A stretch of DNA of 64,000 bases, from NCBI RefSeq assembly GCF_042100115.1, contig NC_091276.1:1054001-1118000 (forward strand), given 5' to 3'. Shown in pieces: positions 37,487-42,844 of the stretch (its first letter is position 1; each line of letters opens with the position of its first letter). Source of the stretch: Alternaria dauci. Lineage: Eukaryota > Ascomycota > Dothideomycetes > Pleosporales > Pleosporaceae. The notes under the pieces were generated by a model. The model saw only the letters and a list, made by a program, of their open reading frames with translations, searched no databases and was not told where the DNA came from. Made by a program: the position numbers and the translations under genes.

Positions 37487-39399
37487 ATGTCGGTCTCAGC
37501 AGCATTGAAGAGCCGGGTCAGGAGGCCAAGTTATCTCAAGAAGATTGCTAAGGCTGAGGATTTGCTTCATCACTTCCCCAATGGAGCATACATTGGCTGG
37601 AGTGGCTTCACTGGTGTGGGATACCCAAAGTAAGTGCTTTCTCTGCTTTTGCGCTACAATAAAAGCCAAGTCATGAGGCTCTCCGGATACTCAGCATAAC
37701 CCTGATTCTGGCATATACGACGTTGGGCCTGCCGGGTAGTTCGATCTGGGATCCCGAGGTGGAACGGAAGTTTGGCCAGTGACGAAAGCCGAACTATCCC
37801 CGACTCCACAATTCGAGCTGCGCATGGATCAGGTCGAGACGAGCAGTCAAGAGCCTTGGCTATGGCACTTGTCACGCATCCTGACTTGGATGCACAATGT
37901 TCATTGCCTTGTTAGACGTGTGAGGCTAATGTCTCAATAGGAAGATCCCCACGGCCATGGCCGACCATGTCGAGAAGAACAATCTCCAGGGTCAGCTCAA
38001 GTACAATCTCTTCGTCGGTGCATCCTCAGGTGCAGAGACTGAGAACCGATGGGCGCGTCTCAATATGATCGAGCGCCGGTCGCCGCATCAAGTCGGCAAG
38101 GAAATCGCCAAGGGTATCAATAACGGCAACATCAAATTCTTCGACAAACATCTTAGCATGTTTCCTGTCGACTTGATGTACGGATTCTACACATTGAACA
38201 AGCCCCACAACAAGCTAGACGTTACCATTGTTGAAGCCTCAGCCATCACTGAGGACGGTGGCATCATTCCTGGAGCCAGTGTTGGCGCATCACCCGAACT
38301 GATCCAGATGGCCGATAAGATCATTATCGAGGTCAACACCGCAGCTCCTTCTTTCGAAGGTCTGCATGACATTACTATGACTGATCTTCCACCTCGCCGA
38401 AAGCCGTATCTCATCATGTCTCCGGAAGATCGCATCGGCACACCGTACATTCCTGTTGACCCGGAGAAGGTCGTGGCGATTGTAGAGAGCGACTACCCCG
38501 ATCAGACGCAACCCAACGCCGCTGAGGATGAAACCTCAAGGGCCATTGCTGCGAACTTGATCGAGTTCTTGAAACACGAAGTCAATCACGGCCGTCTTCC
38601 AGAGAACCTTCTGCCCATCCAGTCTGGTATTGGAAACATAGCCAACGCTGTCGTTGGTGGACTTGCCTCTGGTGGTGCAAACTTCAAGAACCTGAAGGTA
38701 TGGACCGAAGTTCTTCAAGACTCTTTCCTTGACCTCTTCGACTCTGGCAACCTCGATTTCGCAACTGCAACTTCGATTCGCTTCTCTCCTGACGGCTTCC
38801 ACCGGTTCTACGAGAACTGGGACCGATACGCACCCAAGCTACTGCTCCGCTCCCAGCAAGTCTCCAACTCGCCTGAGATTATCCGACGTCTCGGTGTCAT
38901 TGGCATGAACACGCCTGTTGAAGTCGACATCTATGCCCATGCCAACTCGACATGCGTCATGGGTAGCCGCATGCTCAACGGTCTCGGTGGATCGGCCGAC
39001 TTCCTTCGTTCTTCCAAGTACTCAATCATGCACACTCCCTCGTCGCGTCCTACCAAGACGGATCCAACTGGTGTATCCTGCATTGTTCCCATGTGCACAC
39101 ACATTGACCAGACGGAGCATGATCTCGACGTCATCGTCACTGAGCAAGGTCTCGCCGATGTCCGTGGTCTCTCGCCCAGGGAGCGTGCCCGCGTTATCAT
39201 CAAGAAGTGCGCCCACCCCGACTATGTACCAATTCTCGAGGACTACTTCAACAAGGCAGAGTTTGAGTGCCTAAGGAAGGGCTGGGGCCATGAGCCGCAT
39301 CTGCTGTGGAACAGCTTCGACATGCATAAGCACCTGAACGAGCACGGCACCATGAAGCTGCCCAAGTGGGACTACTCTAGTGCTGAGAAGGCCATGTGA
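37487..39399 (+). CDS. ACH1: Acetyl-CoA hydrolase / CoA-transferase
   Basis: Mitochondrial enzyme that moves CoA between acetyl-, succinyl- or propionyl-CoA and acetate, important for acetate handling and propionyl-CoA detoxification. Exons 37487..37629 and 37941..39399 (533 residues). The junction [26 protein letters not shown] matches the family without a gap, so the 311-bp intron removes nothing coding. Domain 1 has [16 protein letters not shown] and [12 protein letters not shown]. The conserved [22 protein letters not shown] and the catalytic Glu region [17 protein letters not shown] are present, with [18 protein letters not shown] in domain 2. No clear presequence, as in yeast. Confidence 0.96.
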
Positions 39400-41857: not shown

Positions 41858-42688
41858 TGACGGAAGTAATTGTGCCATCAGATGCTACCTCCTTTTCTCT
41901 CTTCAACACTATTCTTACGGCTCGACGATCGCATTGCATGGATGGCGTTGAGATACCCACTGCACGGATGCAAATATTCTTACTGTCAGGTCTCTCTTCC
42001 CCTCTACCATGTTTGATAGTGCCCTTGTGTCGCGCTTCAGAATATCCTGCGAGGTGTATTCATATCGCTTGGCTACTTGTATGAGCTTGTGCTCTTACGC
42101 TTGTTTACTTTGGCTACCATGCCTTGTTGACATTTGTATGCTTGAGCGTTTTGGCTGTCACGAATGGGTATTATGACCATGTAACGAATAGACGAATGCG
42201 CATTTCGATTCTGTCTGATGTTGGATGGTGATGAAGAGAATACAGTGAGATTGAGTCACAAACTCCTTGCTCATGGAATGTTTCAAGTCAATGAAGCCCA
42301 TAACGAGCGTGGTTTCTCGACCATTTGAGCATCATCGAGGAAGCCAATGACATTGCATGTGGTCAAGAGATCGACTGACCGCAACAAGACTTGGGTTGAC
42401 GACTGCCTTAGGTTACACGGGTTCACGACTAAGAAGGGCATCTGACGTGTACGCAGCACAATACACACCAGACGTAATCTTTCCCTTTGAGACTACGCTT
42501 TGAGAGAACCATAGGTTCCTTCGTGCAACACAAAAACGAAAGAAAGCTTGACCAATGCTTTTCTAGAAGTAGGTGATGGTGGTGGTAGTGGAACACTTAG
42601 CTGTGGGGACAAAAAAAGGTTCTTCTCCGCCCACCACCAACACCCTTGGACCCGCGATGGGAGGCAGGATACCGAAAAAAAGAAAGGA
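41858..42688. other. Convergent region before the tRNA gene
   Basis: Holds the 3' flank of the Whi5-like gene and the downstream side of the minus-strand tRNA gene. No other gene recognised. Confidence 0.4.
42675..42681 (-). terminator. Pol III terminator of tRNA-Lys
   Basis: On the minus strand a run of seven T residues begins eight bases after the tRNA 3' end, preceded by TTCC TTTC. It is a standard RNA polymerase III stop. Its position shows that the transcript includes the whole interrupted gene with both inserts. Confidence 0.85.
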
Positions 42689-42704
42689 AGCCCGACGTGG
42701 GGGT

Positions 42705-42754
42705 CTAATGATTGTTAGATGATGAATCGAACAGAGGAGTCTTGAAGTACTAAC
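42705..42754 (-). other. Spliceosomal-type intron inside the tRNA T-loop
   Basis: Fifty bases between T-loop positions 57 and 58. The 5' site is G/GTTAGT, the branch-like CTAAC is at 42718-42714, and the 3' site is ATTAG/A. The size equals that of the common mRNA introns in this window (44-62 nt). I see no clear bulge-helix-bulge around the two junctions of the kind the tRNA splicing endonuclease recognises. It also holds a B-box-like element. Confidence 0.75.
42723..42733 (-). promoter_or_regulatory. Surrogate B-box-like element in the T-loop intron
   Basis: Minus-strand TGTTCGATTCA matches the Pol III B-box consensus GGTTCGANTCC at 8 of its 10 fixed positions. The normal B box of this gene is cut after GGTTCG by the intron. 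Function is inferred. Confidence 0.5.
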
Positions 42755-42844
42755 CGAACCCACAACCTTGAGATTGTATGCAATCGTGTCTGTTAGGACG
42801 TGATAACTAAGAGTCTCACGCTCTACCGATTGAGCTAGCCGGGC

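Follow-up and report, generated by a model that had tools for sequence, protein, structure and literature searches.

Introns at position 37/38 of tRNA genes are removed by the tRNA splicing endonuclease, and textbooks keep tRNA introns, which are handled by an endonuclease and a ligase, separate from spliceosomal introns. Ectopic tRNA introns occur in archaea and algae, where excerpts of PMC4090602, PMC3978253 and PMC9602550 link them to cleavage at a bulge-helix-bulge. For Cyanidioschyzon merolae, an excerpt of PMC3978253 states that no homologues were found of the TFIIIC subunits that read the A and B boxes. A further related system is the U6 snRNA gene of S. pombe, a Pol III gene that carries an mRNA-type intron (PMC10484740, excerpt); reference 17 of that paper (1990) concerns, by its title, introns that match the B-box consensus.

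In the genome of Alternaria dauci (34.9 Mb, ten contigs) we identified ten tRNA genes with an insert in the T-arm, a lower bound. Based on their sequence signals, we consider it quite likely that these inserts are U2-type spliceosomal introns in Pol III tRNA genes and that they form a small class here. As far as the cited excerpts describe U6, both cases combine a Pol III gene with a spliceosomal intron that contains a B-box match. Unlike U6, an snRNA with its intron near the catalytic bases, the hosts here are tRNA genes whose own B box is split by the intron at 57/58, and all of them except the Arg gene would also need a second splicing system. The excerpts on C. merolae and archaea also describe D-, anticodon and T-arm introns within one tRNA gene, and a T-arm site at 53/54 as in our Arg gene. 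In contrast, the D-arm site is 12/13 there and 11/12 here, and all ten T-arm inserts here read GT...CTAAY...AG, with B boxes mostly kept. Canonical 37/38 introns differ as well, being 12-33 nt long and, in the seven that we scored, lacking the GT...AG signals of our splice model. Among the matches listed in open-licence PMC text, none reports spliceosomal introns in nuclear tRNA genes (subscription papers and preprints lie outside this scope).

One of the ten genes lies on the minus strand of the window, the whole stretch of 64,000 nucleotides that was analysed (NC_091276.1, positions 1,054,001 to 1,118,000). Reading of the sequence together with ARAGORN places this tRNA-Lys(CUU) gene from 42844 to 42689. 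Exon nt 1-37 (42808..42844, minus) includes the 5' strand of the acceptor stem, the D-arm with the A box and the anticodon, and is identical in five intact copies. It is followed by an ordinary 33-nt tRNA intron at 37/38 (42775..42807, minus), which scores far below mRNA introns. Exon nt 38-57 (42755..42774, minus) ends in GGGTTCG, the left part of a split B box, and borders a 50-nt T-loop insert of spliceosomal type at 57/58, GTTAGT...CTAAC...TTAG (42705..42754, minus). Within the insert are a B-box core, GTTCGATTC (42724..42732, minus), and a branch-point-like CTAAC (42714..42718, minus). Exon nt 58-73 (42689..42704, minus) supplies A58, the 3' strands of the T-stem and the acceptor stem, and the discriminator, and a T7 run that resembles a Pol III terminator lies at 42675..42681 on the same strand. 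These coordinates agree with a sequence-only reading that had proposed the 33-nt intron and the 50-nt insert between nt 57 and 58, the GTTAGT, CTAAC and TTAG signals, and the terminator downstream; its distance of 10 nt from CTAAC to the end of the insert is corrected to 9 nt by count. The insert boundaries are ambiguous by one G, and GT...AG sets them at 57/58.

Neither Rfam at gathering score nor a default ARAGORN scan found a tRNA anywhere in the window. In intron mode, on a 300-base piece, ARAGORN names none while the insert is present and returns tRNA-Lys(ctt) with a 33-nt intron once it is removed; the 73 exonic bases equal those of the five intact copies. A BLAST search of the Lys insert and short flanks against the genome recovered only itself. 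In the predicted fold of the unspliced precursor (z -2.0), the acceptor, D- and T-stems are kept and the anticodon stem folds otherwise; the minimum-energy fold contains four extra pairs that span both T-loop splice sites and are absent from the centroid. CTAAC also occurs inside the 37/38 intron of this gene (42775-42807), where the intact Lys copies have CTAAT, CTAAC or CTGAA at a like place, so it is a feature of Lys 37/38 introns and not specific to the split copy. Elsewhere in the window (37960-39396) is an acetyl-CoA hydrolase gene with 99% identity to an Alternaria burnsii protein cluster, its next three named matches being from Pyrenophora, Lentithecium and Coniothyrium at 95-96%.

Nine of the ten genes carry their insert at 57/58: one of six Lys(CUU) copies (contig C5), two of five Glu(CUC) copies (C5 and C9), one of six Gly(GCC) copies (C2), and all five Gln genes found, three Gln(CUG) (C1, C7 and C8) and two Gln(UUG) (C2 and C4). 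Their inserts all have the form GT...CTAAC...AG and measure 48-54 nt. ARAGORN names all ten spliced sequences correctly, and every gene except that for Arg has an additional 37/38 intron of 12-33 nt. For Lys, Glu and Gly, split and intact copies agree at every exonic base (73/73, 72/72 and 71/71); there are five, three and five intact copies, respectively, and those of Lys(CUU) have 37/38 introns of 29-36 nt and an uninterrupted T-loop. The Lys copies were collected with a 5'-half query, and a seventh match with three mismatches, among mitochondrial-type tRNAs on C3, was left out.

Several searches contributed to this census. A pattern with GT...AG at 57/58 gave 21 matches, and the flanks mark one of them as an additional real tRNA, Glu(CUC) on C9; broader T-loop patterns and family searches brought the total at this site to nine. 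Queries outside the T-loop, which could have revealed any kind of insert, located 21 of the 22 copies of the four families. Eight of these have a T-loop insert, always GT...CTAAC...AG, 13 have none and no other kind of insert was seen among them, a sample biased in that three of the four families were chosen because an intron-pattern match fell in them. The ninth 57/58 gene, Gln(UUG) on C4, came from a broad T-loop pattern alone (140 matches; the gene finds are among the matches listed, up to C7:349354). The pattern GTTCRGTNNG...CTRAC...AGA returned 32 rows versus 52 in a reversed control, and ten rows represent the nine genes; five further rows are not tRNA, judged by their loci or by fetched pieces. 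Inserts of other kinds or at other sites were sought within the fetched loci. There, a scan for a GT...AG insert at 57/58 with a paired T-stem recovered the nine genes plus two loci (L005 and L107) whose flanks do not look like tRNA genes, and a scan at 53/54 recovered the Arg gene plus one match among mitochondrial-type tRNAs (L008), which we take as chance. In viral contigs, five stretches match the T-loop pattern, none with tRNA-like flanks by eye, and the Gln exon pattern has no match in viral or prokaryote contigs.

The Rfam list of the genome, with 58 tRNA hits (63 of 931 candidates scored), contains none of the nine 57/58 genes and also misses intact Lys, Glu and Gly copies. The hits divide into 17 in a mitochondrial-type cluster, three Lys genes and 38 nuclear places. 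The cluster, at G000:C3:3344209-3399162 near the end of a contig of 3445196 bases, appears mitochondrial and includes two Asn tRNAs of equal score on opposite strands, separated by about 55 kb; either the assembly has fused a mitochondrial genome to a chromosome, or this is a large copy inside the nuclear genome.

GT...AG ends are present in 10/10 T-arm and 5/5 D-arm inserts, with U1-complementary 5' sites (GTAAGN, GTTAGT, GTGAGA and GTAYGT), and CTAAC lies 8-11 nt from the 3' end in all nine 57/58 inserts. We scored the inserts with a model of the 5' site, branch point and 3' site trained on 202 introns that were predicted de novo from 344,669 bases as joins between long open frames. This training set, drawn from the window and partly overlapping loci, is impure, with a median length of 72.5 nt versus 56 nt in a stricter set of 43 mRNA-like introns. 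In the stricter set the 10th-90th percentile of length is 47-84.8 nt, and the T-arm inserts (48-54 nt) fall within it, as the sequence-only reading had held for the Lys insert. Model scores place the 57/58 inserts at the 15th-94th percentile (Lys at the 27th) and the Gln D-arm inserts at the 51st-85th. The lowest score of a 57/58 insert was reached by 63 of 200,000 random segments, and that of the Lys insert by 40 when 200,000 segments of 48-54 nt were drawn at random from the window. Seven 37/38 introns used as controls are at percentile 0, but they are short (14-33 nt). On the spliceosomal reading, the spliceosome would first excise a lariat from each interrupted D-arm or T-arm, which would make the arm whole again, and the tRNA splicing endonuclease and ligase would then remove the 37/38 intron. 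We infer this order because the endonuclease reads the folded tRNA body.

Each of the five Gln genes has three introns, in the D-arm at 11/12, at 37/38 (12-17 nt) and in the T-loop at 57/58. Their 5' part reads GGTTxxGTAGT, then a GTAYGT...AG insert of 50-53 nt, then GTAGYGGTTATCAC; the 11/12 position is set by GT...AG, a repeated GTA leaving three bases of slack. This insert splits the A box in all five genes, and its branch motifs (CTAAT in three, CTAAC in one, CTAAA in one) are weaker than those of the 57/58 inserts. No uninterrupted Gln gene was found in a search that was not exhaustive. ARAGORN names 37 of the 38 nuclear Rfam places that were fetched, none as Gln, and the remaining place is the split Arg gene. 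One of these loci (L125) is called Asn by ARAGORN and looks like Arg(UCU) by eye. No place in the genome matches the uninterrupted Gln D-arm TAGTGTAGYGGTTATCAC with zero or one mismatch, and the corresponding pattern gave 30 rows versus 41 in the control, 29 of them with three mismatches, which is chance level, one being a known Gln gene. The split version of the D-arm pattern gave 13 rows versus seven in the control, and five of these are the Gln genes. At G000:C8:383522-383539 on the minus strand, TCGTGTAGCGGTTATCGC resembles a tRNA D-arm and differs from the uninterrupted Gln version at two positions; this place might be an intact Gln gene.

Comparisons among the Gln genes suggest which parts are under constraint. 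Exons are the same in all three Gln(CUG) genes (72/72), with T-loop introns at 76-92%, D-arm introns at 79-85% and 60-base flanks at 46-67%; flanks compared between families by the same method reach 42-56%. In the Gln(UUG) pair, the genes agree at 68/72 exonic positions, with introns at 58-67% and flanks at 40-42%. Their four exonic differences (6, 27, 43 and 66 when the 72 nt are counted through, the last corresponding to standard position 67) make up two compensated pairs, C6-G67 to T6-A67 and C27-G43 to T27-A43. A rough, uncomputed estimate puts the probability that four randomly placed differences yield two complete pairs at about two in ten thousand. Gln(CUG) on C1 and Gln(UUG) on C2 differ at 11 positions, six of which form three compensated pairs (5-68, 6-67 and 29-41); the other five are unpaired, and one of them is in the anticodon. 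The paired bases sit in different exons, which implies that selection acts on the joined RNA, and from these substitutions the joined Gln product appears to be selected. About 55 bases past the mature 3' end of the Gln(CUG) gene on C8 (L091) there is a fragment, CATCGTTCGATTCCGGGCAAGATC, that corresponds to a Gln 3' end preceded by an apparent inner B box of the intron, as if the stretch between two GATTCC copies were lost.

The insert breaks the exonic B box in all nine 57/58 genes. At the left junction the B-box score is 2.4 in Lys and -1.7 in the others, versus 12.2-16.8 for intact boxes. Seven of the nine inserts (Lys, both Glu, Gly and the three Gln(CUG)) contain the core GTTC[AG]ANYC, starting at base 21-25. 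The density in the window predicts 0.0034 cores per 52-mer, and the core in the Lys insert is one of ten matches in the window. By matrix score, the chance per random 52-mer is 0.016 for Lys, which has the lowest-scoring of the seven cores (7.5), and 0.0017-0.0069 for the remaining six, and none of the 43 mRNA introns scores as high for a B box. The seven cores may trace back to two or three separate origins. Seven genes came to light with no B box required (Lys, Glu on C9 and C5, Gly, Gln(CUG) on C1 and both Gln(UUG)), and five of them have the core; Gln(CUG) on C7 and C8 came first from a pattern that required the motif and were found again by one that did not. We infer that the intronic core replaces the Pol III promoter element split by the insert, and Pol III would transcribe the split gene via this intronic B box. 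Runs of T5-T7 lie 3' of all nine genes, beginning 19-50 nt past the insert.

No good B box is present in the T-loop intron of either Gln(UUG) gene, the best scores being 1.5 and 2.0. The gene on C2 (L092) has AGTTCGATTCG in its 3' trailer, between the mature end and the T-run (chance 0.002 per 52-mer, nine trailers examined), possibly a displaced promoter element. In the gene on C4 (L158), CATTCGATTCC lies in the D-arm intron, beginning 13 bases before its 3' end (chance 0.022, five examined). There it precedes what is left of the A box, an unusual arrangement for a B box.

The tRNA-Arg(CCU) gene (L150, G000:C5:2292895-2293032) has a 51-nt insert at 53/54, GTAAGT...CTAAT...TAG, and no 37/38 intron. 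It was taken from the Rfam list with no intron pattern used, as the only Rfam place that ARAGORN could not name, and ARAGORN names it as Arg once the insert is left out. The insert ends in AG before TTCGAGTCC, and the box across the junction reads AGTTCGAGTCC, whole; thus, the final AG of the intron substitutes for nt 52-53 and keeps the B box whole. This is a second way of placing a T-arm intron, at a site shared with the C. merolae T-arm intron. The insert is at the 69th percentile of mRNA-like introns, with CTAAT 10 nt from its end, and the splice model prefers a CTAAC 32 nt from the end. TTTT lies at the very edge of the fetched piece. Another Arg(CCU) gene, L133, carries no interruption and departs from this one in several stems.

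We consider it very unlikely that the split genes are pseudogenes interrupted by intron-like or mobile DNA, with the cell relying on intact copies. The window copy alone is indistinguishable from a recent dead insertion, and intact copies exist for Lys, Glu and Gly, together with the different intact Arg(CCU) gene. The sequence-only reading had named uninterrupted Lys(CUU) genes, together with silence of this copy, as a point for a pseudogene. The first half applies, as the five intact copies make the split Lys copy by itself dispensable for decoding; that copy may be silent. Against decay, exon sequence is unchanged between split and intact copies of Lys, Glu and Gly, no target-site duplication was seen by eye, and the two Gln(UUG) genes differ by compensated pairs. 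No intact Gln gene was found, either among the nuclear Rfam places or by the near-exact D-arm search, which makes pseudogenes a weak explanation of the class as a whole, whatever holds for the Lys copy. The spliceosomal reading, proposed earlier from the Lys gene, is instead strengthened by nine more split genes with like signals, by the compensatory changes in Gln exons and by the interruption of all five Gln genes.

The least credible alternative is that the tRNA splicing endonuclease cuts the inserts at a bulge-helix-bulge, as in archaea or C. merolae. The combination of D-arm, anticodon and T-arm introns is known in C. merolae from tRNA-Ile(UAU), with a T-arm intron at 53/54 as in Arg (PMC9602550, excerpt), and such introns are attributed to an archaea-like endonuclease (PMC4090602, excerpt). 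Here, the required geometry (a 4-bp central helix with 3-nt bulges, allowing one base of slack) is found in two of nine 57/58 inserts and in none of five D-arm inserts, whereas 22-36% of shuffled 57/58 inserts have it. The geometry is thus no commoner than in shuffles, leaving the non-standard endonuclease cut that the sequence-only reading had offered as its other option unsupported, and this mode of cleavage leaves the GT, branch motif and AG of all ten T-arm inserts unexplained. An unlikely variant of our preferred explanation is that the split Gln genes use Pol II or external promoters, the intronic B box being irrelevant and the spliceosome still splicing the transcript. The lack of a clear B box in the Gln(UUG) T-loop introns and the A box split in every Gln gene fit this variant; the T-runs close 3' of all nine 57/58 genes and the B-box cores in seven of them argue for Pol III.

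Returning to the spliceosomal reading, the T-loop introns of Glu, Lys and Gly have much of GTTCGAYTCAT...TCTAACAA in common. Alignment z-scores are 10.4 for Glu-Glu, 7.7 and 9.5 for Glu-Gly, 7.2 and 7.8 for Lys-Glu and 5.4 for Lys-Gly, values that are inflated by the common B box and branch motif; in 561 pairs of mRNA introns the mean is 2.6, the 99th percentile 5.2 and the maximum 7.3. Common descent of these introns is likely from their similarity, not proved, and the link to Lys is the weakest. Flanks and 37/38 introns align at 41-56% between the three families. The inner box of the Lys intron has ATTC, as do the Glu and Gly exons, and the exon of the Lys gene itself has ACCC, which fits transfer over local duplication. 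The introns probably spread between tRNA genes into the common GTTCG|A site, and reverse splicing or gene conversion through the common GGGTTCG could be the route. Kinship of the Gln T-loop introns with this group is unsupported (z 1.6-5.7, within the range of mRNA-intron pairs), and likewise that of the Arg insert (z 1.4-5.4).

Introner-like elements of Dothideomycete fungi have been described in protein genes. They resemble the present case in having related introns at several sites and apparent gain within the same fungal class, and differ from it in that the family here measures 50-54 nt and occupies one fixed tRNA site. We lean towards a picture in which the whole cytosolic supply of Gln-tRNA is under the spliceosome, each three-intron Gln gene relying on two unrelated splicing machineries, and in which mobile T-loop introns that carry a replacement B box invade Glu, Gly and Lys genes without silencing them.

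Rfam and ARAGORN both miss the window gene, and the noncanonical-intron step of tRNAscan-SE 2.0 is described in PMC8450103 for the archaeal search mode; the tRNA sets of such fungi may thus wrongly lack Gln. Intron gain would be caught in progress in families where one or two copies are hit and the others intact. If the introns are spliced, a promoter element within the intron accounts for how introns become established in a gene with an internal promoter, and Pol III transcripts beyond U6 are substrates of the spliceosome, on which an essential tRNA would depend. If this is true for Gln, the spliceosome would be essential for decoding CAG and CAA.
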